Below are positions 4,601 to 57,400 of a DNA stretch of 64,000 bases, in pieces. Position numbers and translations under genes: made by a program. Origin of the DNA: Ectobius pallidus (lineage: Eukaryota > Arthropoda > Insecta > Blattodea > Ectobiidae); contig CAXKWD010000005.1 in the NCBI GenBank assembly GCA_964059195.1, forward strand, positions 94,377,882-94,441,881, written 5' to 3'. How positions within the stretch are numbered: the first letter of the stretch is position 1; each line of letters opens with the position of its first letter. The notes under the pieces were generated by a model. It did no database searches. It was not told the DNA's origin and saw nothing but the letters and a program-made list of their open reading frames with translations.

Positions 4601-4960
4601 TCTATATAGGCTATAAGTATAAATTTGGCCCACCTGGAGAAAAAAATTCTTGCGCCGATAGTAGATATGAAGCACTCATATGATCCCCCCCCCCCCAAAT
4701 CCACGCAAACTTTATGACATGCAGGGCCACTAATTAATTTAACCGATTAAACGCAGGGCATATGTAGAATTTAACAAAATCTTAATTTAATAATTTTATG
4801 GAATATCAAAATGGTAAAATTGCGTTTATTTAGTTCTTTTAAATGCAATTTAAACAGCGTATTAATCAAAGTTATTAAAATACATGTGAGTTAAGAAAAA
4901 TGTCACCATAAATGTGATAAAACGCAATTTAGATTTTAATCGTTGTAACTCCAAACCAAC
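1605..4960. other. Intergenic DNA, no gene recognised
   Basis: No supported coding sequence is present. Two approximately 45-bp direct copies of a segment beginning CACGAACTTCTAAGTAAAC lie at about 2376-2462. A short stretch near 3160-3260 has a diverged relative near 39610-39700; both share a GTGATATTTC(C/G)GA...GAGAAAAGGC core, so they are probably remnants of one dispersed repeat. A run of cytosines lies near 4685-4697. Confidence 0.45.
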
Positions 4961-4962
4961 AA

Positions 4963-5075
4963 AAAAGATGCCCTGAAGATGGTGTAAGCTCACCGAAAGG
5001 CCTAGGCGACGATTTACAAAATAAATTATAGCTGAATAGCTGGTGTTACATGTATTTCATTTCAGTGTATTAATC
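4963..5075 (+). repeat. Solo end of inverted-repeat element with conserved hairpin
   Basis: This segment matches the right arm of the inverted-repeat element at 55.4-55.8 kb: GATGCCCTGAAGATGG, then a short hairpin, then CCGAAAGGCCTAGG, then a tail containing AGCTGGTRTTAC and TTTCATTT. The hairpin stem here is GGTG/CACC (4981-4984 with 4991-4994), whereas the related copy has GGCG/CGCC, a compensatory difference. It has no coding content. Confidence 0.6.
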
Positions 5076-5519: not shown

Positions 5520-5751
5520 ACCTGTTAAAAATTAACTCAATGTTGTTGCTCTAGAAACATATTGGTTTAAGTCTCTGACGGGATGAAGTTACTGAGGAAA
5601 CGACGTGCAAAACGATATGAAGGCTACGTAAAAAAACCGTTACATTATAAATTTTAATATTAACTAATAAGAAAATGCTTATGGTTTTTAAGAGGCGGCT
5701 AAAACTTTGCACCTTTTCTTCTGCTTCAGATCATGTAAGTTACAGTAGGCC
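5520..5751 (+). repeat. Left half of dispersed repeat split by the palindromic element
   Basis: This stretch is homologous to about 20280-20517. Shared landmarks are GTTGCTNTAGAAACAT, GAGGAAACGACGTGCAAAAC-like sequence and TCATGTAAGTTA followed by a TAGGCC site. Its continuation resumes at 17396, beyond the 11.6-kb insertion. Together with the 20.3-kb copy it defines the pre-insertion state of the locus. The nature of the repeat itself is unknown. Confidence 0.75.
5746..5751 (+). repeat. Target site duplication, left copy (TAGGCC)
   Basis: TAGGCC directly precedes the left terminus AGTAGTGG of the palindromic element and recurs immediately after its right terminus at 17396-17401. The diverged uninterrupted paralogue near 20511 carries it once. 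A 6-bp duplication is the length typical of Polinton/Maverick integration. Confidence 0.85.
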
Positions 5752-5856
5752 AGTAGTGGTATCCCCGGCATAGCCGATCGATGCCTAGCGCCGCGACGCC
5801 CCAATTCCAACTTAAACTAATTTCAGTTTCGCCTTCCGGACCATCTTGGCTATCAT

Positions 5857-6130
5857 ATGACACCAACCCCACCCCTCTATCATCCCCCTAAACAAAGTTA
5901 TAGCAAATATAAGATTTGGTCGTTAAAAACAGAGACCCGCATTACACAAAACATTTTTAAAAAAATCCTATTTAGGCCTTTTTGGCACCCCCTGGCTCCG
6001 CACTGTGCCGATCCCATTCCAACCCTTGTAAGCCCCAAAATAATAAAAATCTCATCCCCCTAAACAAAGTTATAGCAAATATAAGATTTGGTCGGTAAAG
6101 CAGAGACCTGCAATACCAACCTTGAAACAA
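5857..6130 (+). repeat. Subterminal repeat pair, left arm
   Basis: The segment beginning CCCCCTAAACAAAGTTATAG near 5884 recurs near 6056 with few changes, giving a roughly 175-bp direct repeat next to the terminus. Two further diverged units containing AATTAATTTTCAA and AGGGGTA follow at about 6180-6420. The mirror copies occupy about 17017-17290 in the right arm. Confidence 0.7.
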
Positions 6131-6472
6131 TCAAACTAAAAACAATAAATAAAATTCACAGAAATAAATAAATGTTATACAAATGAGTTAGGCCCTTATG
6201 AATTAATTTTCAATCCCCTAAAGGGGTATTTTTTAAGAAAATAAAAAATAAAAATAATAATTTTTAGAATATATTATTAATTTGTATATCTGACAGAGTA
6301 GTAACAAAATTAAATAAATAAATGTTACACAAAAAAAGAGTTATGCCCTTGTGAATTAATTTTCAACCCACTAGAGGGGTAGTTTTAAGAAATAAAAATA
6401 AATATAAATTTTAAAATCTAGTAGTATAATGTTTAGGTGATAGAATTAAGACCATATGATCACCCGTAACAA

Positions 6473-7440
6473 GAGGGTGGTTTTCACCCCAACTACCAAT
6501 CTAACCCATTTAAAATTGTTTATTCGACATATAAACATCTTACAGAGCAATATTAACTATCTGACATGATTTACACCCCAAAATTATTTAATTTTATGAG
6601 GGGGGTGGTTTTCAAGGTCACCCATGTTTTTGCCGATATGGACCACTTGAGCCACTGTAAATCGTCTGGAGGGTGGTTTTCACCCCAACTACCAATCTAA
6701 CCCATTTAAAATTGTTTATTCGACATATAAACATCTTACAGAGATATATTGACTATCTGACATGATTTACACCCCTAAATGATTTAATTTTATGAAGGGG
6801 TAATTTTTCAAGGTCACCCAGATTTTTGCAGATATGGACAACTTGAGCCACTGTAAATTGTCTAGAAGGTAGTTTTCGCCCCTACTTCCAATCTAACCCG
6901 TTAAAAATTTATTTTTCAACAATAAAAAATCATACTGAGTGATATCAACCATCTGAAACTCCCAAAAAGGATTGATTTTATGTAAGGGGTGGTTTTAAAG
7001 GTCACACAAGTTTTTCCACAGATAGACTAGATAAGCCATTATAAATAATCTAGAGGGTAGTTTTCACCCCTACTCCCAATCTAACCCATTAAAAATTTAT
7101 TTTTCATCAATAAAAAATCATACTGAGTGATATCAACCATCTGACATGATTTAAACTCCCAAAAAGGATTGATTTTATGTAAGGGGTGGTTTTAAAGGTC
7201 AAACAACTTTTTACACAAATGGACAAGTTCAGCCATTATAAATCGTCTAGTGGGTGTTTTTTCATCCCCACAACCAATCTAACCTACAAAAAAATTATTT
7301 TCGATATTAAAAAATCGTAGTATGCTATATCAATTGTCTAAGAACAATATAAAACCCAGGGTCACAAACGTTTTTTGCAAAAATGGACAGTTTAAGCCAT
7401 TATAAATGTTTTTCACCCCTAACGAACTTAAAATTTATTG
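6473..7440 (+). repeat. ~195-bp tandem repeats, left arm
   Basis: Five degenerate units start near 6473, 6669, 6865, 7051 and 7249. Each contains a GGGTGGTTTTCACCCC-like segment, CCAATCTAACCC, a GATATCAACCATCTGACATG-like core and a GGGGTGGTTTT...AAGGTCA segment. There is no conserved reading frame. Subterminal arrays like this may bind element-encoded factors, but that is an inference from position only. Confidence 0.8.
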
Positions 7441-9140
7441 CTTTCTTACATGAAATGTATGACGTGATTGAATAGTACCACTGTAGTCAAAGTGAAACCC
7501 GAGAAAATCCTAAAAATAAATTAACTTATGACGACGAAGTACTAGTCACAACCTCAAAGATGAACTCTGATTGGTTGAACTTTTCGTAGTACCCCATACC
7601 ATTGGAGAGTTATATTTTATTTTTGAAAATCTATTCCCTAATTACAGGATAGGATGAGAGGACACAAAATGTCTGCAAACAAAAAAGAACATATGTAAGA
7701 AAGAGTATGTTGGAACCATTAGGACAAACACAACTCTAAAAGCCTTATCAATACAAAGAAACTGCTTGTAAAATAACAAAGATGCGGGAAAACACAACTG
7801 AAAACAAGAACATGTATAGTAGGAGATGAAATTATTGTCAACTGTGTATTAAAATTATGATTGGACATGTACATCGACAGAGGATATTAAGCCACAAGTA
7901 CACCTTAACAAGAAACACAAATTGCCAAAATTGGTAAAAAAAAAACGACGATTTAATTAAGTATTGTGGAACTTGAGAGCCTCAGAATAAGTTATATCAA
8001 TAAATCATTATTGAACATATCCTATTAACATAGGAAAATTTCGTTTATACATTAAAATGTTAAACATTATATCTATTGCTAAACAATATTAGAAAGGCAC
8101 CCTAAACACTTCCAAAAAAAATTGATTATAAATAGTCAAAGAAATTGCAGAAATTATGATTGAACATATCCAGTCGCGAGAGGAAATGAAATCATTAATA
8201 AACTCATTTAAATTCTGAAATGTATACCTTTTCAGAAAACTTAAAAAATTCAAACAAAATGACTGCAAACTATTAAAGAAACAGAAAAAAATCTCTAACA
8301 TAGGTAAATATTAGGACAAACGCAACTCTAAAAGATTTGCCAGTTTCAGCAATATGGCTGTAGGCTAACAAAGAAATAAGAAAACCCAACTCAATACAAA
8401 GGAAATATATAGAACATGTCTAGCAGGAGATGAAAATATTGGCAATTGTGCATTAAAATTTTAAAAAAATTACATGATAAATCCACAAATCTTGATTGTA
8501 CACGCACATAGACAGAGGAAATGAAGTCCTTTATGCATTAAAATTTCGAAAAGAACACCTATCACTAAACAAAATGACAAATAAATTCCAAAAGCCTTAT
8601 CAATACAAAAAAACTTGATGTCAAATATCGAAGAAATAGGAACAAACATCTGTAAACAAAGGGCATGTTGGAAAGCGAGAGACTCAGGATAGGTGATGTT
8701 AGCAAACTCATGATTCAACAAGTATAGCCGACAGAGGAAACGTGATCGTTTATGCATTTAAAAAGTACACCTATATGATAATGACACTCTTAACAGTACA
8801 TACAAACTGGTTGTAAACTATCAAAATTGGCAAAATTGGTCTAATAAGTTCAAACGTTGGAACGTGAGAACTTCAGAATAGGTAACGTGAACAAAACACG
8901 ATTCATAAAGTACAGACGACAGAGGAAGGTAAATCGTTTATGGGCTAAAATACAAAACAATATGACAATGCCCACCTCAAACAGAGATACAAGTTGATTG
9001 TAAAAATCAAACAGCCAGATAAAAATGGTAATGTATATTTATCCCTTCAGTGACACATGCATCATTTGCTATATTAGGTTTTTGATATAAACTGGAATAT
9101 GATTAGTTGATTGCCTAAGATGGTGTAAGGTTACAAGATT

Positions 9141-9274
9141 GTAAGCGTAAACATAAACACGAATATGAACGTAAACGTGAATGTGAACGTAAACGTAAAC
9201 GTGATCGTCAACGTCAACGTAAACGTGATCGTAAACGTGAATGTGAACGTAAATGCAAACGTGAACGTGAACGG
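9141..9274 (+). repeat. Hexamer minisatellite (CGTRAA)n, left arm
   Basis: About 22 tandem six-base units of the type CGTAAA/CGTGAA/CGTCAA/CGTGAT run without interruption. Variation is concentrated in the fourth to sixth bases while CGT is retained. It repeats exactly in the right arm at 13874-14007. Confidence 0.9.
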
Positions 9275-9794
9275 ATACACTTAATTTGTGGAATTGTTAC
9301 CTATTAATAAACAGTACGACAGAGACAACTCTAATAGTCTTATCAATTCATACAATGTGGATGTAAATTAACAAAGACACAGGAAAAATGATATGTAAAC
9401 AAAGGGAATATATAGAGTGGAGAGGAAAATAATGTCAGTTGTGCATAACAAATTTAAATTACGTAAAACAATCCACAAATCATGACGGAACATGACCAAT
9501 TGACAGACTAAATGACTATTTATACAAAAAGGACACCTATCACTAATCATTATGACAAAAGAAATTCCAAAAAACCTTATCAATTCAAACAAACTGATTG
9601 TAAAATAGGAGAAAACATATGTAAACAAAGATTTTGTTGGAACGTGAAAGCCTCAGGATAGGTGACGTCAGCAAAAACTACAACCAACAGAGGAAATTAA
9701 GTCATTAAATCATAAAAATGTACCCCCATATGTAAAGGACACCTTAAGAAGAAATACAAACTGTCAAAAATTGGTAAAAAGAAGGCATAAAAAA

Positions 9795-9866
9795 TTAAAA
9801 TCCTGTAAAAAATACACAACTTATGATAGGTTGCTTCTCGCTCTCCAACATTTGCCAACGTTCCAT
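9795..9866 (-). CDS. Micro-ORF behind a TATA box, left-arm copy
   Basis: This is the inverted duplicate of the 23-codon frame at 13282-13353, described there. The TATA motif lies at about 9899-9912 on the opposite side of its start. It has no known domain and may be only a 5' leader or first exon. Confidence 0.25.
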   Translation of the reverse strand: MERWQMLESEKQPIISCVFFTGF

Positions 9867-10348
9867 CGTAGCTGATCGTTGTCCAAATGCAACAAGCCTT
9901 TTTTTATATATATCCTGGCAAGGGGAAAAGAAACCTTCACGACCTTGTTACAAGAATAAAACTACGCCACAAAACCTTTATGCACAGTCATGGCCATCTT
10001 CCTCATGACGTATGATCATTATCATACTCGTTCAAGGCTAGTTATACTTTAGTGCATTAAAGCCTTAACTTCATTGACTAGAATCCGAATAAAATGTCTG
10101 TCGTTTCACTAAACTGACAGATAACTTTTGTCTTGCTTTAACATTTCCCTCAGGTTCACCAACAGTATTATAAAATAATATGAGAAAGACTGTAAATTAT
10201 CAAATTTTGGTATGTATTAATCATATCTTACATGTCATACTTGTTGAGTCACGAATATGTGTCATTGGTACAAGATAAAAAGGTGACGTCAGCAAGACAT
10301 GTTTGAACAGGCCTCACTGAGAAAGAATTGGAACACAAGTTGACATAT

Positions 10349-10633
10349 TTAGAATACAGTTTTATTTAACTTTTCTTTAAAAAATGTACAAAATTGTGAG
10401 AAACGTTCGTGGTCCCTCCGAGGATCATCTCCCTCATTCCATTGTCCAAGTTCAACCTTGCAAAAAGCGCAACGAACAATATCATCGTATCCCGTGTAAT
10501 AAAATCCCTCGGAGGCCAAAAGCGTTGGATTCATGAAAGACACAGTCCATCTTCCATATGTTTTCAAACGATCACTTTCCTTTTTCATATTGAGAGCACG
10601 CCACTTTGTACGAGGACAAGCGTTCGAAGACAT
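10349..10633 (-). CDS. Single-BIR (IAP-like) protein, left-arm copy
   Basis: This inverted duplicate of 12515-12799 encodes the same 94-residue protein with BIR zinc ligands C55, C58, H75 and C82. Both copies are open and appear identical, so dosage is two per element. The arrangement is convergent: the left copy reads away from the centre toward the left terminus. See the right-arm entry for the domain description. Confidence 0.85.
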   Translation of the reverse strand: MSSNACPRTKWRALNMKKESDRLKTYGRWTVSFMNPTLLASEGFYYTGYDDIVRCAFCKVELGQWNEGDDPRRDHERFSQFCTFFKEKLNKTVF

Positions 10634-11244
10634 GATGACGTTTCTTCTTCTTCACCTTCTGATCTTCAACTGTTCCAAGATGACTACGTATAGGCGATGA
10701 AAAGGAATATAAATTTGAACAAAAACAGAGAATTGGGTTGAAAAGGGTTGTCTAATACTTCTTGTAGAGCTAGTAATCTAATATAAACATGTTGATACAT
10801 GAGAAGCTCAGGATAGATTAGTACAAAACAAGTATGATTATGTCCGGTCGACAGAGGATATGAATTCTTTTATACATTAAATTGTGCACAAAAATTACGT
10901 AACAATATGACAAAGGTATCTCTTCAATACTGAGTAGAGAGGCTCAGGACAGGTATCAACCGCAAAACATGATTCATCGTGAACAGCAGACAGAGGAATC
11001 GAAACCATTTATGCATTTAAAATGGGCAAAAAATAATGTCAATTGTGCTAAAATGATGAAAAACTACTAAATTAATACACAAATCATGCTTGAACATGTC
11101 CATCGACACAGGAAATGAAGTTATTTCTACATTTAAAATTACGAAAGTCCTCTGGTTGGGTGACGGTAGGAATGAAAGAAAGACAAATAAGTGATGAAAC
11201 AATATTTATTTTGTCACATGATATCGTGAACAAAACTGGAAAAA

Positions 11245-11488
11245 TTAAAATGGGTCTTCATCCAAATTCTTAACACCATTACATTCTGTAGTGCAAATGC
11301 CATATGTGAAGCAGTATGAAAAAAAACATTTGACGTCACATTGTCTTAATTTACTCAGCTTAGGGCAGCTGACATCATCAAGGTTAGTAACACTTCTTTG
11401 CAGTAGTTTTTTTTTAATTTTGCTTTTTCTAGTCCCTTGCAATAAAGTTTGTCTTCACACTGTAAAGCACTCTCTAGTATAGATTTCA
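11245..11488 (-). pseudogene. 5'-truncated copy of the cysteine-rich ORF, left arm
   Basis: This is the inverted copy of the distal part of the frame at 11542-11903. The left arm stops at 11488, so the first 39 codons and the start, present only in the spacer, are missing here. It retains the A-rich shift site and the cysteine-rich C-terminus ending in LDEDPF. One substitution distinguishes it from the right copy (11445 versus 11703). The asymmetry shows that the right-hand gene is the ancestral one and that the fold point fell inside it. Confidence 0.7.
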
Positions 11489-11659
11489 GCGCTACGTTTT
11501 AGGAGAGACGGTGGTAATGTTAATGGAGCGGCAAACTAGCAATGGACTATGGAAAACATTTTGAGTATGAGGATTATTGCATAGCGAAGTGTCAGGAGTA
11601 TGCAGAATCGTATCTTCATGGAATCCCTTGGCAGCTTGGATACATACGATATGTGGCAT
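11489..11659 (+). other. Unique spacer at the palindrome centre
   Basis: These 171 bp are the only part of the element present once. They hold 53 bp of leader and the first 39 codons of the cysteine-rich ORF. Arm pairing ends at TATAGATTTCA on the left and its complement on the right, after which the two sides differ completely. A unique spacer makes a simple sequencing fold-back artefact less likely. Confidence 0.9.
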
Positions 11660-11903
11660 TGAAATCTATACTAGAGAGTGCTTTACAGTGTGAAGACAAA
11701 CTATATTGCAAGGGACTAGAAAAAGCAAAATTAAAAAAAAACTACTGCAAAGAAGTGTTACTAACCTTGATGATGTCAGCTGCCCTAAGCTGAGTAAATT
11801 AAGACAATGTGACGTCAAATGTTTTTTTTCATACTGCTTCACATATGGCATTTGCACTACAGAATGTAATGGTGTTAAGAATTTGGATGAAGACCCATTT
11901 TAA
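11542..11903 (+). CDS. Cysteine-rich ORF with candidate -1 frameshift
   Basis: Frame one starts at ATG 11542 (an in-frame TAA lies at 11521) and stops at 11793 after 83 codons. Codons TTA AAA AAA AAC at 11731-11742 contain the heptamer A AAA AAC (11736-11742) in the correct register for -1 slippage. Slipping would join residue 67 to a second open frame ending at TAA 11901-11903, giving 120 residues. The second frame is rich in cysteine (CDVKCFFSYCFTYGICTTEC) and acidic at its end. A 6-bp stem TCAGCT/AGCTGA with a 6-base loop lies at 11776-11793, 33 bases downstream, farther than usual for a stimulator. AATAAA at 11938-11943 could end the transcript. No family is recognised. The N-terminal codons lie in the spacer and no TATA box is visible upstream, so the promoter may have been lost. 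A simple pseudogene frameshift in the A9 run is the main alternative. Confidence 0.4.
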
Positions 11904-12514
11904 TTTTTCCAGTTTTGTTCACGATATCATGTGACAAAATAAATATTGTTTCATCACTTATTTGTCTTTCTTTCATTCCTACCGTCACCCAACCAGAGGA
12001 CTTTCGTAATTTTAAATGTAGAAATAACTTCATTTCCTGTGTCGATGGACATGTTCAAGCATGATTTGTGTATTAATTTAGTAGTTTTTCATCATTTTAG
12101 CACAATTGACATTATTTTTTGCCCATTTTAAATGCATAAATGGTTTCGATTCCTCTGTCTGCTGTTCACGATGAATCATGTTTTGCGGTTGATACCTGTC
12201 CTGAGCCTCTCTACTCAGTATTGAAGAGATACCTTTGTCATATTGTTACGTAATTTTTGTGCACAATTTAATGTATAAAAGAATTCATATCCTCTGTCGA
12301 CCGGACATAATCATACTTGTTTTGTACTAATCTATCCTGAGCTTCTCATGTATCAACATGTTTATATTAGATTACTAGCTCTACAAGAAGTATTAGACAA
12401 CCCTTTTCAACCCAATTCTCTGTTTTTGTTCAAATTTATATTCCTTTTCATCGCCTATACGTAGTCATCTTGGAACAGTTGAAGATCAGAAGGTGAAGAA
12501 GAAGAAACGTCATC

Positions 12515-12799
12515 ATGTCTTCGAACGCTTGTCCTCGTACAAAGTGGCGTGCTCTCAATATGAAAAAGGAAAGTGATCGTTTGAAAACATATGGAAGATG
12601 GACTGTGTCTTTCATGAATCCAACGCTTTTGGCCTCCGAGGGATTTTATTACACGGGATACGATGATATTGTTCGTTGCGCTTTTTGCAAGGTTGAACTT
12701 GGACAATGGAATGAGGGAGATGATCCTCGGAGGGACCACGAACGTTTCTCACAATTTTGTACATTTTTTAAAGAAAAGTTAAATAAAACTGTATTCTAA
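12515..12799 (+). CDS. Single-BIR (IAP-like) protein, right-arm copy
   Basis: A 94-residue protein consists of essentially one baculoviral IAP repeat. Visible landmarks are R22-W29 leading to LLASEGFYYTG (38-48), DDIVRCAFC (50-58), W65, DDPRRDHERF (69-78) and C82. The zinc ligands are C55, C58, H75 and C82 with canonical CX2C-X16-H-X6-C spacing, so the fold should be intact. There is no RING, CARD or UBC domain, unlike full IAPs, and it is shorter than survivin. BIR domains bind caspases or the N-terminal motifs of apoptosis inducers, or act in chromosomal passenger complexes; which applies here is unknown. A TTTATAT motif lies about 80 bp upstream, and AATAAA (12782-12787) overlaps the last codons, a compact virus-like arrangement. 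Placement inside the mobile palindrome suggests cargo that protects infected or transposing cells. The domain call is firm; the function is inference. Confidence 0.88.
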   Translation: MSSNACPRTKWRALNMKKESDRLKTYGRWTVSFMNPTLLASEGFYYTGYDDIVRCAFCKVELGQWNEGDDPRRDHERFSQFCTFFKEKLNKTVF

Positions 12800-13235
12800 A
12801 TATGTCAACTTGTGTTCCAATTCTTTCTCAGTGAGGCCTGTTCAAACATGTCTTGCTGACGTCACCTTTTTATCTTGTACCAATGACACATATTCGTGAC
12901 TCAACAAGTATGACATGTAAGATATGATTAATACATACCAAAATTTGATAATTTACAGTCTTTCTCATATTATTTTATAATACTGTTGGTGAACCTGAGG
13001 GAAATGTTAAAGCAAGACAAAAGTTATCTGTCAGTTTAGTGAAACGACAGACATTTTATTCGGATTCTAGTCAATGAAGTTAAGGCTTTAATGCACTAAA
13101 GTATAACTAGCCTTGAACGAGTATGATAATGATCATACGTCATGAGGAAGATGGCCATGACTGTGCATAAAGGTTTTGTGGCGTAGTTTTATTCTTGTAA
13201 CAAGGTCGTGAAGGTTTCTTTTCCCCTTGCCAGGA

Positions 13236-13249
13236 TATATATAAAAAAA
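13236..13249 (+). promoter_or_regulatory. TATA box upstream of micro-ORF, right arm
   Basis: TATATATAAAAAAA lies 33 bp before the ATG at 13282 in otherwise mixed sequence. The spacing suits a very short 5' leader. The inverted copy is at about 9899-9912. Its use is untested. Confidence 0.4.
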
Positions 13250-13281
13250 GGCTTGTTGCATTTGGACAACGATCAGCTACG

Positions 13282-13353
13282 ATGGAACGTTGGCAAATGT
13301 TGGAGAGCGAGAAGCAACCTATCATAAGTTGTGTATTTTTTACAGGATTTTAA
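13282..13353 (+). CDS. Micro-ORF behind a TATA box, right-arm copy
   Basis: A frame of 23 codons begins MERWQMLESEKQ and ends at TAA. The first half is charged and amphipathic, and the rest is short and hydrophobic. No family is recognised. It could be a genuine micropeptide, a leader ORF, or the start of a spliced gene, although no consensus GTAAGT donor is visible inside it. The upstream 200 bp are less AT-rich than the repeat field, consistent with a regulatory segment. Confidence 0.25.
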   Translation: MERWQMLESEKQPIISCVFFTGF

Positions 13354-13873
13354 TTTTTTATGCCTTCTTTTTACCAATTTTTGACAGTTTGTATTTCTTC
13401 TTAAGGTGTCCTTTACATATGGGGGTACATTTTTATGATTTAATGACTTAATTTCCTCTGTTGGTTGTAGTTTTTGCTGACGTCACCTATCCTGAGGCTT
13501 TCACGTTCCAACAAAATCTTTGTTTACATATGTTTTCTCCTATTTTACAATCAGTTTGTTTGAATTGATAAGGTTTTTTGGAATTTCTTTTGTCATAATG
13601 ATTAGTGATAGGTGTCCTTTTTGTATAAATAGTCATTTAGTCTGTCAATTGGTCATGTTCCGTCATGATTTGTGGATTGTTTTACGTAATTTAAATTTGT
13701 TATGCACAACTGACATTATTTTCCTCTCCACTCTATATATTCCCTTTGTTTACATATCATTTTTCCTGTGTCTTTGTTAATTTACATCCACATTGTATGA
13801 ATTGATAAGACTATTAGAGTTGTCTCTGTCGTACTGTTTATTAATAGGTAACAATTCCACAAATTAAGTGTAT

Positions 13874-14007
13874 CCGTTCACGTTCACGTTTGCATTTACG
13901 TTCACATTCACGTTTACGATCACGTTTACGTTGACGTTGACGATCACGTTTACGTTTACGTTCACATTCACGTTTACGTTCATATTCGTGTTTATGTTTA
14001 CGCTTAC
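13874..14007 (-). repeat. Hexamer minisatellite, right arm
   Basis: This is the exact inverted copy of 9141-9274, reading (TTYACG)n on the + strand. Retention of every unit variant in both arms shows that the arm duplication is younger than the array's divergence. Confidence 0.9.
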
Positions 14008-15706
14008 AATCTTGTAACCTTACACCATCTTAGGCAATCAACTAATCATATTCCAGTTTATATCAAAAACCTAATATAGCAAATGATGCATGTGTCACTG
14101 AAGGGATAAATATACATTACCATTTTTATCTGGCTGTTTGATTTTTACAATCAACTTGTATCTCTGTTTGAGGTGGGCATTGTCATATTGTTTTGTATTT
14201 TAGCCCATAAACGATTTACCTTCCTCTGTCGTCTGTACTTTATGAATCGTGTTTTGTTCACGTTACCTATTCTGAAGTTCTCACGTTCCAACGTTTGAAC
14301 TTATTAGACCAATTTTGCCAATTTTGATAGTTTACAACCAGTTTGTATGTACTGTTAAGAGTGTCATTATCATATAGGTGTACTTTTTAAATGCATAAAC
14401 GATCACGTTTCCTCTGTCGGCTATACTTGTTGAATCATGAGTTTGCTAACATCACCTATCCTGAGTCTCTCGCTTTCCAACATGCCCTTTGTTTACAGAT
14501 GTTTGTTCCTATTTCTTCGATATTTGACATCAAGTTTTTTTGTATTGATAAGGCTTTTGGAATTTATTTGTCATTTTGTTTAGTGATAGGTGTTCTTTTC
14601 GAAATTTTAATGCATAAAGGACTTCATTTCCTCTGTCTATGTGCGTGTACAATCAAGATTTGTGGATTTATCATGTAATTTTTTTAAAATTTTAATGCAC
14701 AATTGCCAATATTTTCATCTCCTGCTAGACATGTTCTATATATTTCCTTTGTATTGAGTTGGGTTTTCTTATTTCTTTGTTAGCCTACAGCCATATTGCT
14801 GAAACTGGCAAATCTTTTAGAGTTGCGTTTGTCCTAATATTTACCTATGTTAGAGATTTTTTTCTGTTTCTTTAATAGTTTGCAGTCATTTTGTTTGAAT
14901 TTTTTAAGTTTTCTGAAAAGGTATACATTTCAGAATTTAAATGAGTTTATTAATGATTTCATTTCCTCTCGCGACTGGATATGTTCAATCATAATTTCTG
15001 CAATTTCTTTGACTATTTATAATCAATTTTTTTTGGAAGTGTTTAGGGTGCCTTTCTAATATTGTTTAGCAATAGATATAATGTTTAACATTTTAATGTA
15101 TAAACGAAATTTTCCTATGTTAATAGGATATGTTCAATAATGATTTATTGATATAACTTATTCTGAGGCTCTCAAGTTCCACAATACTTAATTAAATCGT
15201 CGTTTTTTTTTACCAATTTTGGCAATTTGTGTTTCTTGTTAAGGTGTACTTGTGGCTTAATATCCTCTGTCGATGTACATGTCCAATCATAATTTTAATA
15301 CACAGTTGACAATAATTTCATCTCCTACTATACATGTTCTTGTTTTCAGTTGTGTTTTCCCGCATCTTTGTTATTTTACAAGCAGTTTCTTTGTATTGAT
15401 AAGGCTTTTAGAGTTGTGTTTGTCCTAATGGTTCCAACATACTCTTTCTTACATATGTTCTTTTTTGTTTGCAGACATTTTGTGTCCTCTCATCCTATCC
15501 TGTAATTAGGGAATAGATTTTCAAAAATAAAATATAACTCTCCAATGGTATGGGGTACTACGAAAAGTTCAACCAATCAGAGTTCATCTTTGAGGTTGTG
15601 ACTAGTACTTCGTTGTCATAAGTTAATTTATTTTTAGGATTTTCTCGGGTTTCACTTTGACTACAGTGGTACTATTCAATCACGTCATACATTTCATGTA
15701 AGAAAG

Positions 15707-16674
15707 CAATAAATTTTAAGTTCGTTAGGGGTGAAAAACATTTATAATGGCTTAAACTGTCCATTTTTGCAAAAAACGTTTGTGACCCTGGGTTTTATAT
15801 TGTTCTTAGACAATTGATATAGCATACTACGATTTTTTAATATCGAAAATAATTTTTTTGTAGGTTAGATTGGTTGTGGGGATGAAAAAACACCCACTAG
15901 ACGATTTATAATGGCTGAACTTGTCCATTTGTGTAAAAAGTTGTTTGACCTTTAAAACCACCCCTTACATAAAATCAATCCTTTTTGGGAGTTTAAATCA
16001 TGTCAGATGGTTGATATCACTCAGTATGATTTTTTATTGATGAAAAATAAATTTTTAATGGGTTAGATTGGGAGTAGGGGTGAAAACTACCCTCTAGATT
16101 ATTTATAATGGCTTATCTAGTCTATCTGTGGAAAAACTTGTGTGACCTTTAAAACCACCCCTTACATAAAATCAATCCTTTTTGGGAGTTTCAGATGGTT
16201 AATATCACTCAGTATGATTTTTTATTGTTGAAAAATAAATTTTTAACGGGTTAGATTGGAAGTAGGGGCGAAAACTACCTTCTAGACAATTTACAGTGGC
16301 TCAAGTTGTCCATATCTGCAAAAATCTGGGTGACCTTGAAAAATTACCCCTTCATAAAATTAAATCATTTAGGGGTGTAAATCATGTCAGATAGTCAATA
16401 TATCTCTGTAAGATGTTTATATGTCGAATAAACAATTTTAAATGGGTTAGATTGGTAGTTGGGGTGAAAACCACCCTCCAGACGATTTACAGTGGCTCAA
16501 GTGGTCCATATCGGCAAAAACATGGGTGACCTTGAAAACCACCCCCCTCATAAAATTAAATAATTTTGGGGTGTAAATCATGTCAGATAGTTAATATTGC
16601 TCTGTAAGATGTTTATATGTCGAATAAACAATTTTAAATGGGTTAGATTGGTAGTTGGGGTGAAAACCACCCTC
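15707..16674 (-). repeat. ~195-bp tandem repeats, right arm
   Basis: This is the inverted copy of the five units at 6473-7440. One substitution near 16201 and the overall one-base register shift toward the terminus are the only differences noticed here. Confidence 0.8.
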
Positions 16675-17395
16675 TTGTTACGGGTGATCATATGGTCTTA
16701 ATTCTATCACCTAAACATTATACTACTAGATTTTAAAATTTATATTTATTTTTATTTCTTAAAACTACCCCTCTAGTGGGTTGAAAATTAATTCACAAGG
16801 GCATAACTCTTTTTTTGTGTAACATTTATTTATTTAATTTTGTTACTACTCTGTCAGATATACAAATTAATAATATATTCTAAAAATTATTATTTTTATT
16901 TTTTATTTTCTTAAAAAATACCCCTTTAGGGGATTGAAAATTAATTCATAAGGGCCTAACTCATTTGTATAACATTTATTTATTTCTGTGAATTTTATTT
17001 ATTGTTTTTAGTTTGATTGTTTCAAGGTTGGTATTGCAGGTCTCTGCTTTACCGACCAAATCTTATATTTGCTATAACTTTGTTTAGGGGGATGAGATTT
17101 TTATTATTTTGGGGCTTACAAGGGTTGGAATGGGATCGGCACAGTGCGGAGCCAGGGGGTGCCAAAAAGGCCTAAATAGGATTTTTTTAAAAATGTTTTG
17201 TGTAATGCGGGTCTCTGTTTTTAACGACCAAATCTTATATTTGCTATAACTTTGTTTAGGGGGATGATAGAGGGGTGGGGTTGGTGTCATATGATAGCCA
17301 AGATGGTCCGGAAGGCGAAACTGAAATTAGTTTAAGTTGGAATTGGGGCGTCGCGGCGCTAGGCATCGATCGGCTATGCCGGGGATACCACTACT

Positions 17396-17401
17396 TAGGC
17401 C
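17396..17401 (+). repeat. Target site duplication, right copy (TAGGCC)
   Basis: This follows the terminus CCACTACT and matches 5746-5751. The flanking sequence then resumes the interrupted repeat. Confidence 0.85.
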
Positions 17402-18379: not shown

Positions 18380-19330
18380 GTATATAAATAAAATAAAAAT
18401 AGCCTTTAATCCTTAAAGGGCAATGGCCTCTCCTAAAAGGTGGGTAGCTCGATTGTTCTTCCCACATTTGAGCTAAGAATGTGGAATTTTCCTGTCTTTG
18501 TCCTTGTGAGTTCGTTAGTCTTGGTCTCTGGTCACTTTTAGTCTACACTTTCTCCTTTTCACTCCACTATTCACTTATTTTCACTTTCACTGTCTTAGTC
18601 TGTTCTTAGTATTGTATGAGGTTTTCGTGCTCCTTCCAGACGTCTCGGTTCCTCGCCATCCTAGTCCAGGTGCTGCCAGCGTTCCTCCTTATTTCGTCCG
18701 CCCATCTCGTTCTTGGTCTTCCTGGTCCCCTCTCTCCCTCTCTTGGATCCCACATCGTTGCTATTTTTGCCCAGCGGTTGTTGTTCATTCTTGCTGTGTG
18801 ACCTGCCCATCTCCACTTCGCTACTTGCGCTGCTGTCGCGGCGTCCTTTACTTGTGCCTTCTTCCTGATTTCGGCGTTTCTTATTCGGTCTCTTACTGAT
18901 ATCTGTAATATCTTCCTTTCCATCTTCCTCTGAGTAGTCTGTATTGATGTCCTTTGTTGCTGGGTTGTTGTCCACGCTTGTCCTCCATATAGTATCAATG
19001 TTGGGAGTATGCAGCTGTCTAGGATTTCGCGTTTGACTTTAGCTGTTGCGACTTGTCCATTAGGATGAAACGTAGGCTCCAAAACTTTCTCCAGGCTAGT
19101 GAGATCCTCCTCTTTATTTCTTTGTTGTTGCCGTCTTGAAATGATACGGATACGTATTCCTGGACGTATTCTAGTGCTTCCGATTCCATTTGGATCTGGA
19201 TTTCCTCTCTATTCGTCATTGCTTTTGTTTTCCTGGTGTACATCGCCTCGATTCAGACAAACATCTATTCGAGTTCATAACCTTTATGCCCTCCGCACAC
19301 GGGTCAATTCTTCTGTCAGGCAGCTTGCAG
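18380..19330 (-). pseudogene. Non-LTR retrotransposon 3' fragment (reverse transcriptase C-terminus)
   Basis: Read on the minus strand, about 19330 to 18606 encodes the distal part of a LINE ORF2 in several frames. Visible pieces are TKAMTNREEIQIQMESEALE, then SFQDGNNKEIKRRISLAW...KFWSL (19019-19243). After a frameshift come EILDSCILPTLILYGGQAWT and WRWAGHTARMNNNRWAKIA, then GERGPGRPRTRWADEIRRNA (18606-19082). This order and the WAGH...RW...GRPRTRW motifs are typical of the post-RT region of insect non-LTR elements. It is 5'-truncated and frameshifted, so dead. A 3' UTR continues to about 18380 and ends in an ATTTT-rich tail. Confidence 0.85.
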
Positions 19331-20274: not shown

Positions 20275-20945
20275 CAAAAGTTCAACACATTAATTTACGT
20301 TTGTTGCTGTAGAAACATAATTGTTTAATTTCCAGAAGAGATGAGCTGACATTTTTAAGTTACTGGGGAAACGACATGCAAAACATTATGAAGACCACAT
20401 TTAATAACATTATAAATTCCAATACTAAATGAGAAGAGGATGCTGATGGGGCTTAATAAGTGGCTGTAACCTTGTACCTTCTCTCTTACTTCAGGATCAT
20501 GTAAGTTATAGTAGGCCTATACCTTATATTTATTATTTTTACACACGAATGCTGGTTATAAGTGAAAACTATAGAGTTATGACAAACATGATGTGAAACA
20601 CTCAAATAACTTTCTCAACCAAAAGTATCGAGAGTGAAATGTCTTTGCGTCACGTTGTGGTTTTAGTCTACAGGATTTTGCAATAGCCTATAATGCCTTG
20701 TGTGACGTTGAATATTCATCTATAGAGAATTGCTCTCTTCCTTGTTGTAGCCGAGATGACTAGCTTTTAACAACAGTTCAGAATTATTCTATAAAACACT
20801 ATTAATTGAATATTGTAGACGTAAATAGAAGAGGTCAGAGTTCAAAATTAGAAAGAAACCCCTTACGGCATCGTTAATATACTTCATGACAAACGATTTT
20901 AGTATAATACCACATTTAAGTCACCTTATACTTTCTATTGGTATT
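20275..20945 (+). repeat. Uninterrupted paralogue of the palindrome target site
   Basis: This diverged copy corresponds to 5520-5751 joined directly to 17396-17835. Its central sequence ATAGTAGGCCTATACC carries a single TAGGCC where the other copy holds the 11.6-kb insertion. It therefore acts as an in-window empty site. The two copies are in direct orientation about 2.4 kb apart, so they could be remnants of long terminal repeats or simply one dispersed family. Confidence 0.75.
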
Positions 20946-22886: not shown

Positions 22887-23341
22887 TCTACACCATTTCA
22901 ACCTCAATTTCGGAAAAAGTAATTTCAATTTCGGAAAAAGTAATTCCAATTTCGGAAAAAGTAATTTCAATTTCGGAAAAGGTAATCTTAATTTCGGAAA
23001 AAGTAACTTCAATTTCGGAAATACGAGGGCTATTTTTTAAAACATTCGATGGGGCATAAAATGAAAACCACAGTGAAAATCAAAACTGTTTTATTTGGAA
23101 CATTTAGGTACACCTTCTAGCTACTTCTCTACATAATCTCGCTCCGATTGAGTCATTTGTCCTAGCGTGGTACCAACTTTACTATACCCTCTTCATAGCC
23201 CTTATATTTCCGAAATTGAAGTTACTTTTTCCGAAATTGAAATTACCTTTTCCGAAATTGAAATTACTTTTTCCGAAATTGAAATTACCTTTTCCGAAAT
23301 TGAAATTACATTTTCCGAAATTGAGGTTGAAAAGGTGTAGA
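22887..23341. mobile_element. Foldback element with 18-bp tandem repeats around a mariner remnant
   Basis: Outer inverted ends read TCTACACC.TTTCAACCTC on both sides. Each arm holds about six tandem 18-bp units (AATTTCGGAAAAAGTAAT type), at about 22905-23021 and, inverted, 23207-23325. The 185-bp centre begins TACGAGGGCTATTTTTTAA, a mariner-like terminus. Read on the minus strand it contains a broken transposase end (GTTGGTACCACGCTAG...GACTCAATCGGAGCGA...GATTATGTAGAGAAGTAG). This is a non-autonomous mariner derivative whose terminal repeats were extended by tandem duplication. Short open frames here (ISEKVISISEKV) are artefacts of the array. Confidence 0.75.
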
Positions 23342-24949: not shown

Positions 24950-25132
24950 ATGGCACTAGGATTGGAAGAAAGAAGAGAATTGATTTATCGCAGCTTGGGA
25001 CCTCAAGGTAAAAAGAAGAAAGAAAACAGAATTTATTACCTAATCGAAATAACGAGAAATAAGAAACAAAATGTTTTATTACCTAATCCATTTAAGGGAA
25101 CAAGAAGAAAGAAAGAAGTATTTATTACCTAA
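24950..25132 (+). other. Short open frame running into the minisatellite
   Basis: ATG 24950 opens a 60-codon frame beginning MALGLEERRELIYRSLGPQ, after which the sequence becomes minisatellite. CTCAAG|GTAAAA at the junction could be a splice donor, so the opening may be a small exon. The peptide is not recognised and the remainder is repeat-derived lysine/arginine-rich sequence. Confidence 0.15.
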
Positions 25133-28100
25133 TCGAAATAAGGAAAAAAGAAACAAAAAGTTTTTATTACCTAATCCATTTAAGGGAATAAGAAGAAAGA
25201 TAAAGTATTTATTACCTAATCGAAATAAGGAAAATAATAAGAAACAAATTTTTTTATTACATAATCCATTTAAGGGAATAAGAAGAAAGAAAAAGGTATT
25301 TATTGCCTAATCGAAATAAGGAAAAAATAAGAAACAAAAAGTTTTTATTACCTAATCCATTTAAGGGAATAAGAAGAACCAAAAAAGTATTTATTACCTA
25401 ATCGAAATAAGGAAAAAATAAGAAACAAAAAGTTACTATTACCCAATCCATTTAAGGGAATAAGAAGAAAGAAAAAAGTATTTATTACCTAATCGATGTA
25501 AGGAAAAAATAAGAAACAAAAAAGTTTTTATTACCTAATCAATTTAAGGGAATAAGAAGAAGAGAAAAAATATTTATTACCTAATAGAAATAAGGAAAAA
25601 ATAATAAACGAATTTTTTTATTACCTAATCCATTCAAAGGAATAAGAAGAAAGAAAAAAGTTTTTATTACCTAATCCATTTAAGAGAATAAGAAGAAAGA
25701 AAAAGGATTTATTACCTAATCCATTTAAGGGAAAAAGAAGAAAGAAGAATGTTCTTATTACCTAATCCATTTAAGGGAATAAGAAGAACCAAAAAAGTAT
25801 TTATTACCTAATCGATATAAGGAAAAAATAAGAAACAAAAAAGTTTTTATTACCCAATCCATTTAAGGGAATAAGAAGAAAGAAAAGTATTTATTACCTA
25901 ATCGAAATAAGGAAAAAATAAGAAACAACATTTTTTATTACCTAATCCATTTAAGGGAATAAGAAGAAAGAAAAATGTATTTATTACCTAATCGAAATAA
26001 GGAAAAAAGAAACAAAAAGTTTTTATTACCTAATCCATTTAAGGGAATAAGAAGAAAGAAAAAGTATTTATTACCTAATCGAAATAAGGAAAAAATAAAA
26101 AACAAAAAGTTTTTATTAGCTAATCCATTTAAGGGAATAAGAAGAAAGAAAAAGATATTTATTACCTAATCGAAATAAGGAAAAATGAAACAAAAAAATT
26201 TTATTACCTAATCCATTTAAGGGAATAAGAAGAAAGAAAAAGTATTTATTACCTAATCGAAATAAGGAAAAAATAAGAAACAAAATTTTTTGTTACCTAA
26301 TCCATTTAAGGGAATAAGAAGAAAGAAAAAGTATTTATTACCTAATGGAAATAAGGAAAAAATAAGAAACAAAATTGTTTATTACCTAATCCATTTAAGG
26401 GAATAAGAAGAAAGAAAAAGGTACTTATTACCTAATCCATTTAAGGGAATAAGAAGAAAGAAAAAGGTATTTATTACCTAATCAAAATAAGGAAAAAAGA
26501 AACAAAAAGTTTTTATTACCTAATCCATTTAAGGGAATAAGAAGAAAGAAAAAGTATTTATTACCTAATCGAAATAAGGAAAAAAGAAACAAAACGTTTT
26601 TATTACCTAATCCATTTAAGGGAATAAGAAGAAAGAAAAAGTATTTATTACCTAATCGAAATAAGGAATAAATAAGAAACAAAATTTTTTATTACCTAAT
26701 CCATTTAAGGGAATAAGAAGAAAGAAAAAGTACTTATTACCTAATCGAAATAAGGGGAAAATAAGAAACATAATTGTTTATTACCTAATCCATTTAAGGG
26801 AATAAGAAGAAAGAAAAAGGTATTCATTACCTAATCGAAATAAGGAAAAAAGAAACAAAAAGTTTTTTTATTACCTAATCCATTTAAGGGAATAAGAAGA
26901 AAGAAAAAGTATTTATTAACTACTCGAAATAAGGAAAAAATAAGAAACAACATTTTTTATTACCTAATCCATTTAAGGGAATAAGAAGAAAGAAAAATGT
27001 ATTTATTACCTAATCGAAATAAGGAAAAATGAAACAAAAAGTTTTTATTACCTAATCCATTTAAGGGAATAAGAAGAAAGAAAAAGTATTTATTACCTAA
27101 TCGAAATAAGGAAAAAATAAGAAACAAAAAGTTTTTATTACCTAATCCATTTAAGGGAATAAGAAGAAAGAAAAAGGTATTTATTACCTAATCGAAATAA
27201 GGAAAAAGTAAACAAAAAGTTTTTATTACCTAATCAATTTAAGGGAATAAGAAGGAATAAAAAGTATTTATTACCTAATCGAAATAAGGAAAAAATAAGA
27301 AACAACATTTTGTATTACCTAATCCATTTAAGGGAATAAGAAGAAAGAAAAATGTATTTATTACCTAATCGAAATAAGGAAAAAAGAAACAAAAAGTTTT
27401 TATTTCCTAATCCATTTAAGGGAATAAGAAGAAAGAAAAAGTATTTATTACCTAATCGAAATAAGGAAAAAATAAGAAACAAAAAGTTTTTATTACCTAA
27501 TCCATTTAAGGAAATAAGAAGAAAGAAAAATTATTTATTACCTAATCGAAATAAGGAATAAATAAGAAGCAAAATCTTTTATTACCTAATCCATTTAAGG
27601 GAATAAGAAGAAAGAAGAAGTATTTATTACCTAATCGAAATAAGGAAAAAATAAGAAACTAAATTGTTTATTACCTAATCCATTTAAGGGAATAAGAAGA
27701 AAGAAAAAGGTATTTATTACCTAATCGAAATAAGGAAAAAAGAAACCAAAAGTTTTTATTACCTAATCCATTTAAGGGAATGAGAAGAAAGAAAAAAGTA
27801 TTTATTACCTAATCGAAATAAGGAATAAATAAGAAACAAAATTTGTTATTACCTAATCCTTTTTAGGGATCAAGAAGAAGGAAAAAGGTGTTTATTACCT
27901 AATCGAAATAAGGAAAAAAGAAACAAAAGGTTTTTATTACCTAATCCATTTAAGGGAATAAGAATAACCAAAAATATATTTATTACCTAATCGATATAAG
28001 GGAAAAATCAGAAATAAAAAAATTGTTATTACCTAATCCATTTAAGGGAATAAGAAGAAACAAAAAAGGATTTATTACCTAAATGATACAAGGAAAAAAT

Positions 28101-28775
28101 AAGAAACAAAAAAGTTTTTATTACCTATTCGATGTAAGGAAAGAGTAAGAAACAAAAACGTTTTTATTACCTAATCTAAATAAGGAAAAAGTAAGAAAAA
28201 AGTTTTTATTACCTAATCCATTTGAGGGGATAAGAAGAACCAAAAAGGTATTTATTACCTAATCGATGTAAGGAAAAAATAAGAACCAAAAAAGTTTTTA
28301 TTGCCTATTTCATTTAAGGGAATAAGAAGAACAAAAAAGTATTTATTACCTAATCGATATAAGGAAAAAATAAGAAACAAAAAAGTTGTTATTACCTAAT
28401 CCATTTAAGGGAATAAGAAGAAACAAAAAAGGATTTATTACCTAATCGATGAAGGAAAAAGTAAGAAACAAAAAGGTTTTTATTACCTAATCCATTTAAG
28501 GGAATAAGAAGAACCAAAAAGGTATTTATTACCTAATCGATATAAGGAAAAAATAAGAAACAAAATGTTGTTATTACCTAATCGAAATAAGGAAAAAATA
28601 AGAAACAAAAATGTTTTTATTATCTAATCGATTTAAGGGTAAAAGAAGAAACAAAAAGTTTTAATTACCTAAGCTAGAAACAGAAGAGGCTTATTACCCA
28701 ATTCATTTAAGGGAATAAGATGAAACAAAAAAGCTTTTAGTATGTAATCGATTTAAGAAGGTATGGAGAAACGAA
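25029..28775 (+). repeat. 3.7-kb minisatellite with bipartite ~90-bp unit
   Basis: The unit has two half-units. A contains TTATTACCTAATCGAAATAA then GGAAAAAATAAGAAACAAAA. B contains TTATTACCTAATCCATTTAA then GGGAATAAGAAGAAAGAAAA. They alternate for roughly forty units; occasional B-B or A-A adjacencies and single-base indels mark unequal exchange. The array is most regular at about 25.9-27.8 kb and decays toward the right, with variants such as CGATATAAGG and CGATGTAAGG beyond 27.9 kb. One strand is strongly purine-rich. Read in frame the halves give LLPNRNKEK and LLPNPFKGIRRKK peptides, but indels break every frame, so no protein is proposed. Confidence 0.95.
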
Positions 28776-49174: not shown

Positions 49175-50700
49175 CTATAGAAAAAAGCAACTCATCTACC
49201 TGGATACAAGATACATCGATAGACTACAACCTGCTGTGATATAATTGTACATAACAAAAATAATTTTATTTATGTTTATTTGTATTATTTATAGTGATCT
49301 ATGGTTCACTAAATGATTTCAACCTTTTAACATTAAACTAAACGATAATGTAACTTCTAAAAATTTACAATACCTCATATTTGCACGCATGAACTAAGTA
49401 CCTATTGATCAACCGGTTATGCATTGAACATAAAAAACTAACTTATGACTACTTTATGAAGAAAATTCCTCTTCAACATGTAAGACATCTAAATATCTGT
49501 CAAATACTCCAAGACTGTATACAAAATAACCAACAGCGACAACAGTTCCAGATTCGCTTCGATGTAGAAAACGTGACTGTTGATTTATCTATTTGCTATG
49601 AAGTAATATAATTCTTAAAGTCAATTGGACAAATGCCAAATATTCTATAAGTTATATATTTATTGTTTATGTACTGAATTGAACAAAGTGTTATAAATGT
49701 AATTGCGATAATATAAATTATGACTGCCGCGATATGACTTATAGATATAAAGCGACAATAAATCAATAAATGAATTTTAAAGGAAATATCGTAGACAATC
49801 CCAAGAGAGATTTCGAGTTGATCGATATATTTGGGATGAATATCTTATGAACCTCGGAATCTCGTGTCGGATTTATTAAGACTATTCCATGAGTAAAATG
49901 TAACGGATTTTGTAAATAATAATTATTTTCTTACTTCATTGACAACATTGTCAGTCAGGCATATTAAATAAATGAACAGTCCATTAATCGATTCGATGAA
50001 TCGTAGAAGTTCCTTATATCGAAACGCTATAAAAGCAAACGAACTGGCTTGCACCGAATCGAAATTGTGTTTTTAATCAATGGACTTTTATATTATTACA
50101 ATTTACAAACAAGTTATGTTGTATAAAATAATGTGTTCTCATTCTGTTTACTGGCAGCAGGTGACGTATTAATCAGCGCACGTTGATGCCTTACGTGTCC
50201 TGTAAAAAAACCTGATGTTTTATAAGATAAAATTGCATCCTTTCAATCCGAGGAAGCATATTATAACATAAGATCGTGATTGGTCTATATCCGAGGAACT
50301 GCTAAAACTTATTGGTCAGTATCAAACACGCAGCGTATGAATGGAATAGTCACTTTAAAAATAAATTTAACAGTTATAAAATTACAAATTGACCAGTCCG
50401 AAAAATACCGTCCGAAAATTTTGCACATTCAACCTCCCATCACAAAAAAAAAAAAACCTTGAAATTAAATTTTCAGAGAATTGTAGACCCATACACGAAA
50501 TGACAGAGGGTTTATTATATATAACAGTTACTAAATTATAAGCCAACAGGAAAAAGAACTCAAGAACGTCCACCGAAAAGATGGAAATACCAGTTCACAA
50601 TATGAGACCGAACAGGCCAACAGGCCAACAGGCCTAATCCATGAAGGTGGTGGTGGTGATGATTATGATGACAAATTATAGCTCTGCAATAACGAAATAG
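49175..50700. other. Intergenic DNA, no gene recognised
   Basis: Only short unrelated frames are present. A 68-codon frame at 49405-49611 is unrecognised. CAGGCCAACAGGCCAACAGG near 50613 is a small tandem triplication. Confidence 0.35.
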
Positions 50701-51529
50701 AATCAGGTAAACTGATGTAACAAAGTGCCAGTATGCTTTTATTTAATCAGTAAAAAGTTAATTGGAATTATGATATGCAGAGAATAAATTATTTTTGTTA
50801 TCGATTTCCTAGTTAAGCTGCAGATCGATTCATTAAGCAGGACTTACGGAAGAACAAAGGTCTAATGCTTGATACTTAACCTTAATTCAAACTCGTATAC
50901 ACTGATTTAAGACATTCTTAAAATATGCCAACATTTCACAAAATACACTGGCGAAGAACTCCACTTAATGTATGTAGGCCTAATTATTTCAGAGTTTATA
51001 TCTTCTGTATATAACAGTATTCAACTTGATGAACGAAATAAACATCTGACCAGTTTGATAATCAAACCTTCAAATTTACTTCGTTACTATCACCGTATGT
51101 CTCAGCTTAAATGCGAAGGACTGTGTCATGGCTAATAACGAAGTAAATTGGAAGATTTAATTATCAAACTATTCAGTGTTTATTTCGTTCATCAAGTTGA
51201 ATACTGTTATATACAGTAGATATAGCCTAAACTCTGAAATAATTAGGTCTACATACATTAAGTGGAGTTCTTCGCCAGTGTATTTTGTGAAATCTTGACA
51301 TAATTATTTTAAGAATGTCTTGTATCAGTGTATACGAGTTTGAATTAAGGTTAAGTATCAAACTTTAGACCTTTGTTCTTCCGTAAGTCCTGCTTAATGA
51401 ATCGATCTGCAGCTTAACTCGGAAATCGATAACAAAAATAACTTATTCTCAGCAAATCATAATTCCAATTAACTTTTTACTGATTAAACAAAAGCATACT
51501 GGCACTTTGCTACATCAGTTTACCTGATT
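50701..51529. mobile_element. 829-bp foldback (palindromic) element
   Basis: The left arm (50701-51088) and right arm (about 51133-51529) are inverted copies with scattered mismatches. They start and end with AATCAGGTAAACTGATGTAA and its complement, and a roughly 45-bp loop lies between. There is no coding capacity. A related one-armed fragment with the same terminus is at 57239-57397, and a shorter one at 52822-52862, so this is a dispersed family of foldback elements. No clear target duplication was identified. Confidence 0.8.
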
Positions 51530-51531
51530 TT

Positions 51532-57196: not shown

Positions 57197-57238
57197 AGTC
57201 AATCATATCACTAGCAGATTACGTTCACATTAATTAAT

Positions 57239-57400
57239 AAAATCAGGTAAACTGATGTAACAAATTGCCAGTATGTTTTTGTTTAATCAGTTATGACTGC
57301 AATTATGATATGCAGAATATGTTTTTTTTTAAATTGATTTCCAAGTTAAGCTCCAGATTTACTCATTAAGCAGGGCTTACGGAAGAAGAAAGGTCTACCA
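57239..57400 (+). mobile_element. One-armed fragment of the 829-bp foldback family
   Basis: AAATCAGGTAAACTGATGTA, CCAGTATG, AATTATGATATGCAGA, CATTAAGCAGG and CTTACGGAAGAA follow the same order as 50700-50870. The element stops after about 160 bp with no second arm. Confidence 0.75.

Follow-up and report, generated by a model that had tools for sequence, protein, structure and literature searches.

We analysed a window of 64,000 nucleotides from Ectobius pallidus (contig CAXKWD010000005.1, positions 94,377,882 to 94,441,881 of the forward strand), in which one element, here called W, occupies window positions 5752-17395 as a palindrome. This palindrome is real. W likely belongs to an old lineage of palindromic, non-autonomous Polinton derivatives that exists in many copies and is propagated by Polinton proteins via a hairpin; such elements would be self-complementary satellites of Polintons. 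Both halves of such an element are probably made identical anew at each move, using the Polinton machinery.

The arms of W (5752-11488 and 11660-17395) could be aligned over their whole length, with 3 substitutions and a single 1-base indel between them. In the self-alignment of the window, this inverted pair was the one dominant repeat besides a tandem satellite. The termini are AGTAGTGG and CCACTACT, with TAGGCC immediately beyond each end; among 320 AGTAG...CTACT pairs spaced 8-16 kb in the window, one had equal outer 6-mers, and it was the palindrome's own pair. The flanks are the two sides of a host repeat, of which an uninterrupted paralogue with TAGGCC at the junction was found at 20301-20929; therefore W is an insertion with a 6-bp target-site duplication. 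An earlier reading of the window, made from its letters (the sequence-only reading), had described a near-perfect palindrome with two arms of about 5.74 kb and an exact 6-bp duplication, and both descriptions held.

With the first 3 kb of the window arm as query, we searched the genome (2.12 Gb, 410 contigs). Among the best 29 of 1,381 candidates, which were scored, we found the window copy, twelve further plus/minus pairs and four places for which no partner was scored. We fetched ten of these twelve pairs (elements A to J). The other palindromic copies that the sequence-only reading had proposed to look for thus exist: all ten were palindromic, 8.7-15.4 kb long, each inverted arm measuring about 2.3 to 7.7 kb, and all ten matched the region of the window arm that holds a 196-bp tandem array. 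Within elements A to J the arms were 98.9-99.9% identical over the largest blocks; values for other parts were 91.6% for the outer 1.4 kb of A (one side has an extra 196-bp unit), 98.2% for the outer 564 bp of H and 98.1% for an inner block of J with 30 gap positions. When different elements were compared, identity over the longest block common to a pair was 76.7-97.5%. All 11 elements start with AGTAG, followed by T in six (W, B, G, H, I and J) and by G in five. An exact 6-bp duplication was found in nine of the ten fetched relatives, or 10 of 11 with W. At least 55 genomic loci show both arms through a two-sided centre, through a pair of divergent genes or in the fetched sequence, namely 40 centres, 11 pairs of a matrix metalloproteinase (MMP) gene that lack a scored centre, and the elements W, A, B and E.

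The outermost bases past AGTAG (first 5-30 bp) were highly variable among elements, even among those similar farther in, and the two ends of each element were nearly alike (0-2 mismatches over the first 100 bp). Four pairs of opposed family termini lie 16.7-30 kb apart (G000 C2:156852952-156883136, C379:210134-230929, C356:2420102-2437903 and C354:731038-747705). They exceed the fetched members in size and could be nested insertions or larger, gene-richer relatives; the C2 pair has a family centre near its middle and the C356 pair a divergent MMP pair. Contig G000 C114 has four family termini in one orientation at counting places 7708, 87213, 98661 and 150100, perhaps a tandem array.

The family has a common centre. 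A query of 401 bp around the axis of element C was used and the best 40 of 299 candidates were scored, with 82 of 90 match rows (the 8 rows dropped were the weakest, each lying within 1 kb of a centre already listed). All 40 loci matched on both strands, 26 in full length and 14 partially, and the axis lay at the identical sequence position in all 26 full-length centres. In intact centres, the arms are separated by about 48 nt of asymmetric sequence. The centre is recognisably the same in C, D, F, H and I, and the same but more diverged in E. One asymmetric centre is common to the intact members and its axis does not move; therefore the palindrome is ancestral. Non-palindromic centres were found in W (171 bp), A (679), G (977), B (4,137) and J (about 2,885). 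All five are composed of one-armed sequence from the intact centre region, therefore one-sided deletions across the axis explain all five, the window copy requiring one further deletion of about 330 bp. Judged from this composition, the centre of W is a deletion remnant of the family centre and W is a centre-deleted descendant; the length of 171 bp had been given correctly before, but the centre is not unique to W. Two centre orientations (flip and flop) were also considered as a replication signature and dropped; a palindrome inserted either way round looks identical.

The main rival is repeated de novo snap-back at one hotspot, in which a single-armed progenitor (a Polinton end) snaps back repeatedly at the same fold and the palindrome is never inherited. 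In its favour, arms are nearly identical at birth, a strong hairpin is formed by the centre (for 101 nt of element D, z was -9.9 against shuffles, mostly owing to the included arms), and snapback genomes of adeno-associated virus (AAV) are described in passages of PMC8235507. However, all 40 scored centres (of 299 candidates) are two-sided, with no single-armed progenitor among them, and the axis position is the same in 26 of 26, and we regard this explanation as unlikely. The earlier proposal that W was formed by snap-back is kept in part: a snap-back or hairpin step is supported as a probable part of the life cycle, but the palindrome is ancestral to the family and was not made for W.

Arms are made equal before insertion. 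Arm differences were counted in 18 arms of nine elements (B and E omitted), with the inner arm ends trimmed and 26 messy substitution columns set aside. The 91 clean differences comprised 67 private to one element's arm, 18 with both alleles elsewhere and 6 uninformative ones; no difference site was common to two elements. The arms of B and E are identical in the region proximal to the terminal inverted repeat (TIR), yet 8.8% from the nearest other element, and the arms of W differ by 0.1% vs 1.2% to the nearest other element. In H and J, the old terminus AGTAGGGATATGCC lies about 0.8-1.0 kb inside both arms (in the right arm of H by alignment, at 924), and outside it an extra end module with a new terminus was found on both sides. 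The 6-bp duplication of H lies directly outside the new end, and thus the double gain predates insertion. From these sequences the new end of H and J looks to have been copied arm to arm before integration, for which post-insertion gene conversion would be no explanation. Together, the private differences, the equality of B and E and the double gain indicate that the arms are re-equalised before insertion, most likely via a self-complementary (hairpin) intermediate. Element I (C1:53351144-53365506) gives a hint of exchange between elements: for 10 of its 33 arm differences, both alleles also occur elsewhere in the family.

A further line of evidence for arms made equal before insertion came from the protein search for MMP, with the best 75 scored matches of 3,275 candidates (75 of 92 rows used; 17 second stretches of counted matches dropped). 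Sixty-four matches form 32 divergent pairs, none is in a convergent pair and 11 are unpaired. Both arms have an equal number of in-frame stops in 26 of the 32 pairs, 13 of them with at least one stop; numbers and not positions were compared, and since second stretches were dropped the counts apply to the first stretch of each match.

If the palindrome had a single origin and its arms were homogenised in the chromosome after insertion, by gene conversion from arm to arm, it would be comparable to the palindromes of sex chromosomes, for whose arms this process is established. The arm differences with both alleles elsewhere would fit it, but most differences are private, and the outer end of H and J, gained on both sides with the duplication of H outside it, was gained before insertion. 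We consider gene conversion improbable as the main cause.

The genome also contains Polintons that encode a polymerase. The PolB profile PF03175 gave at least 151 matches (best 75 of 1,705 candidates), many of which lie in uninterrupted frames of 1,300-1,515 aa. Two PolB-bearing elements bounded by inverted repeats, of 15,563 bp and 17,594 bp, have the ends AGTAGTAT; both end in AGTAGT and have 6-bp duplications (TAGTAG and GCAACA), bearing out the Polinton-type termini claimed for W by the sequence-only reading. The 15,563-bp Polinton encodes an integrase core and a chromodomain, and a packaging-ATPase match was just below the curated cut-off (part of the frames scanned). The 17,594-bp Polinton encodes a homologue of the centre-proximal gene of the palindromes (31% over about 153 aa, E 1e-17, tblastn on twelve loci), and the alignment of six rows has 37 invariant columns. 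Nucleotide matches between these Polintons and the palindromes were short simple repeats to J and nothing else. According to passages of PMC8097293, the ends of vertebrate Mavericks are commonly (AGT)2 or (AG)3, there tied to protein-primed replication, with 6-bp duplications and a constrained size of mean near 17 kb; the value "402 +/- 276 bp" we read as TIR length.

The palindromes thus have the (AGT)2-type termini and the 6-bp duplication of Polintons. Neither PolB and integrase nor capsid and ATPase genes were found encoded in W, B, C and E, and their long arms are unlike the Polinton arrangement, in which a gene block is flanked by TIRs a few hundred bp long. The termini and the duplication are common to the palindromes and PolB-bearing copies of the same genome, as expected of a non-autonomous Polinton derivative.

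A foldback or Mutator-like element (MULE) type family that has very long inverted repeats but no relation to Polintons would agree with the long repeats and with the result that no transposase was found by Pfam in four members. Foldback/P-type and MULE elements have other duplication lengths. For a foldback family we would expect a duplication of more than 6 bp and an own terminal motif, but the duplication was 6 bp in 10 of 11 elements, the AGTAG termini are as in the two Polintons here and one gene is common to both, making this explanation very improbable. As for an assembly artefact (missed adapter or folded read), such errors create palindromes, but differing flanks with duplications, non-identical arms and the same build at many loci on several contigs make its probability negligible.

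For the palindromic Polinton derivative, we propose the following cycle. The genome of the lineage would consist of two inverted copies of a unit of about 7 kb around the asymmetric centre of about 48 nt, with a Polinton-type terminus at each outer end. The protein-primed PolB and the integrase of autonomous Polintons, supplied in trans, would act on the AGTAG termini. The displaced strand would fold back to a hairpin of about 7 kb with a single duplex end, which could again be the replication origin; in structure, the sequence is that of a self-complementary genome with a Polinton-type terminus at this end. Copying of the hairpin with mismatch repair, or self-primed synthesis at the central fold, might equalise the arms in every cycle, and the duplex palindrome would then integrate with a 6-bp duplication. 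Once inserted, the two arms would slowly diverge and the centre would be lost through one-sided deletions, as in W. We infer here the hairpin intermediate, the PolB and integrase in trans, and packaging.

Several points weigh against this reading. The 18 differences with both alleles elsewhere are found in I (10/33), D (4/14), A (2/8), G (1/4) and J (1/6), indicating either that some arms already differ at birth or that elements recombine. In young relatives the arm-arm and element-element distances overlap (0.0042/0.0042 for I in the region of the BIR-domain gene; 0.0057/0.0057 for D in the TIR region), the arms of A differ by one 196-bp unit, and the BIR-region tree is well supported at just one of eight inner branches (A_l and J_r were dropped from distances and tree for coverage; B and E had no match there). 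Five of the 11 termini are AGTAGG instead of exact (AGT)2, and J is without the 6-bp duplication. The four arm-query places and 11 MMP matches mentioned above have no scored partner. As for an autonomous Polinton sharing the termini, to be sought according to the sequence-only reading, the two Polintons compared agree with the palindromes in AGTAGT and the 6-bp duplication, but no TIR similarity beyond AGTAGT was detected. Finally, no replication or particle was observed, and the structure proposed here was read from the sequence.

Concerning the genes in the arms, an open reading frame (ORF) of the BIR family with at least 90 aa was found in 9 of the 11 elements; no relatives of it came from the protein search or from viral contigs, in which the terminus pattern also had no match. 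MMP frames were found in C, G, H, I and J, broken in H. The MMP of C matched Pfam PG_binding (6e-5), M10 (1e-24) and hemopexin (5e-6), and that of G showed 31% identity to the best database match. Neither BIR nor MMP was seen in E and B. The centre-proximal frame was found in six members (C, D, F, G, H and I), with 165 aa in C. Its protein had no Pfam match and two database proteins at 52% identity; viral contigs gave nothing for this gene or for MMP, and PHROGs nothing for this gene. Its predicted structure is of low confidence (mean pLDDT 59.6), with a strand/helix order that recalls an RNase-H-like fold. Pooled ratios of nonsynonymous to synonymous change were 0.58 for MMP, 0.47 for BIR and 0.49 for the centre-proximal gene (few changes, non-independent pairs), weakly suggesting constraint on all three. 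Six-frame Pfam scans of W, B, half of C and half of E revealed no polymerase, integrase, ATPase or capsid domains, although diverged capsid proteins could escape these scans. The sequence-only reading had seen no core genes in W, which agrees with the scan of the W unit; it had seen only cargo genes, which is nearly right, except that the centre-proximal gene, broken in W, has its homologue inside a PolB-bearing Polinton.

We might tentatively speculate that the palindromes are true satellite viruses of polintoviruses, with replication as giant hairpins, doubling to about the packaging size of the helper, and host-modulating BIR and MMP genes; we hold this to be possible, though on balance doubtful. 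Among the fetched copies, the six whose centre is intact are 13.5-15.4 kb long, vs 15.6 and 17.6 kb for the two Polintons. If the palindromes are packaged satellites, Polintons serve as their helper viruses. To our knowledge, this would be the first lineage with palindromy as the inherited state of the genome.

Features of W and its target repeat, in window positions
Feature	Position	Strand	Remark
Target-site duplication TAGGCC, left copy	5746..5751	.	supported by empty paralogous site
Left arm, 5,737 bp, terminus AGTAGTGG	5752..11488	+	
Tandem array, 196-bp unit, 4.3 copies	6472..7316	+	mirrored ~15863-16675
6-bp repeat array, TGAACG-like	9150..9273	+	mirrored 13875-13998
BIR-domain gene, left-arm copy, 94 aa from first ATG plus stop	10349..10633	-	Pfam BIR 1.1e-16; points away from centre
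Broken remnant of centre-proximal gene, left arm	11245..11454	-	ORF comparison with intact members
Centre, 171 bp	11489..11659	+	bases 1-97 as in intact members' centre; bases 101-171 from one arm side farther out
Broken remnant of centre-proximal gene, crossing centre into right arm	11524..11793	+	ORF comparison with intact members
Right arm, 5,736 bp, inverted copy	11660..17395	-	3 substitutions and 1 indel vs left arm
BIR-domain gene, right-arm copy	12515..12799	+	position computed from arm alignment
Target-site duplication TAGGCC, right copy	17396..17401	.	
Insertion-free paralogue of target repeat	20301..20929	+	junction 20512-20517

The window contains further repeats. A second palindrome at 50695-51535 (841 bp, about 90% self-inverse, partial repeat at 57236-57397) looks like a small foldback or miniature inverted-repeat transposable element family, with no duplication established at the printed flanks. 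An imperfect palindrome of 362 bp (about 76%) was found at 55411-55772, with related pieces at 4908-5062, and inverted 147-bp arms of short TTTCGGAAAAAGTAA-like repeats around a centre of about 160 bp at 22887-23341. An AT-rich tandem satellite of 3.7 kb with units of about 45 bp and strong strand asymmetry is located at 25005-28757. A frame at 18606-19082 resembles, by eye, the C-terminal part of a non-LTR retrotransposon protein.

Eukaryotic chromosomes are not expected to maintain long near-perfect palindromes stably. Despite this, a palindrome of about 14 kb is the normal state of this mobile lineage, which has amplified it to dozens of copies. The family is a natural self-complementary genome and offers a route to seek replication intermediates of Polintons. 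Arm divergence could be a possible clock for each insertion, and the family is a natural series of palindrome-centre decay.

Among the papers listed in searches of PubMed Central, none described a comparable Polinton, palindromic or non-autonomous, and absence from print is not claimed. Among known systems, FB and Galileo foldback elements are similar in their very long inverted repeats with few or no genes, and differ in duplication length, termini and gene content. Virophages and transpovirons are analogous in the proposed dependence on the machinery of another element; in contrast, the palindromes were found without own capsid or polymerase, and their genome is palindromic. According to passages of PMC8235507, defective AAV snapback genomes are built from copies of a single genome end, joined head to head at a turn, a likeness to the elements here, and such self-complementary half-genomes can replicate with helper functions. 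Those genomes are found in virus stocks, whereas the palindromes here form a persistent, diverging lineage in the host genome with an ancestral centre and own genes. Polintons/Mavericks have in common with the palindromes the AGTAGT-type termini, the 6-bp duplication, a similar size class, one homologous gene and PolB-bearing copies in the genome. The palindromes differ in that W, B, C and E are without PolB, integrase, ATPase and capsid domains by Pfam, and that the inverted repeats form most or all of the element. As probable Polinton derivatives they are of a known kind, and what would be new is the palindromic genome as an inherited state.

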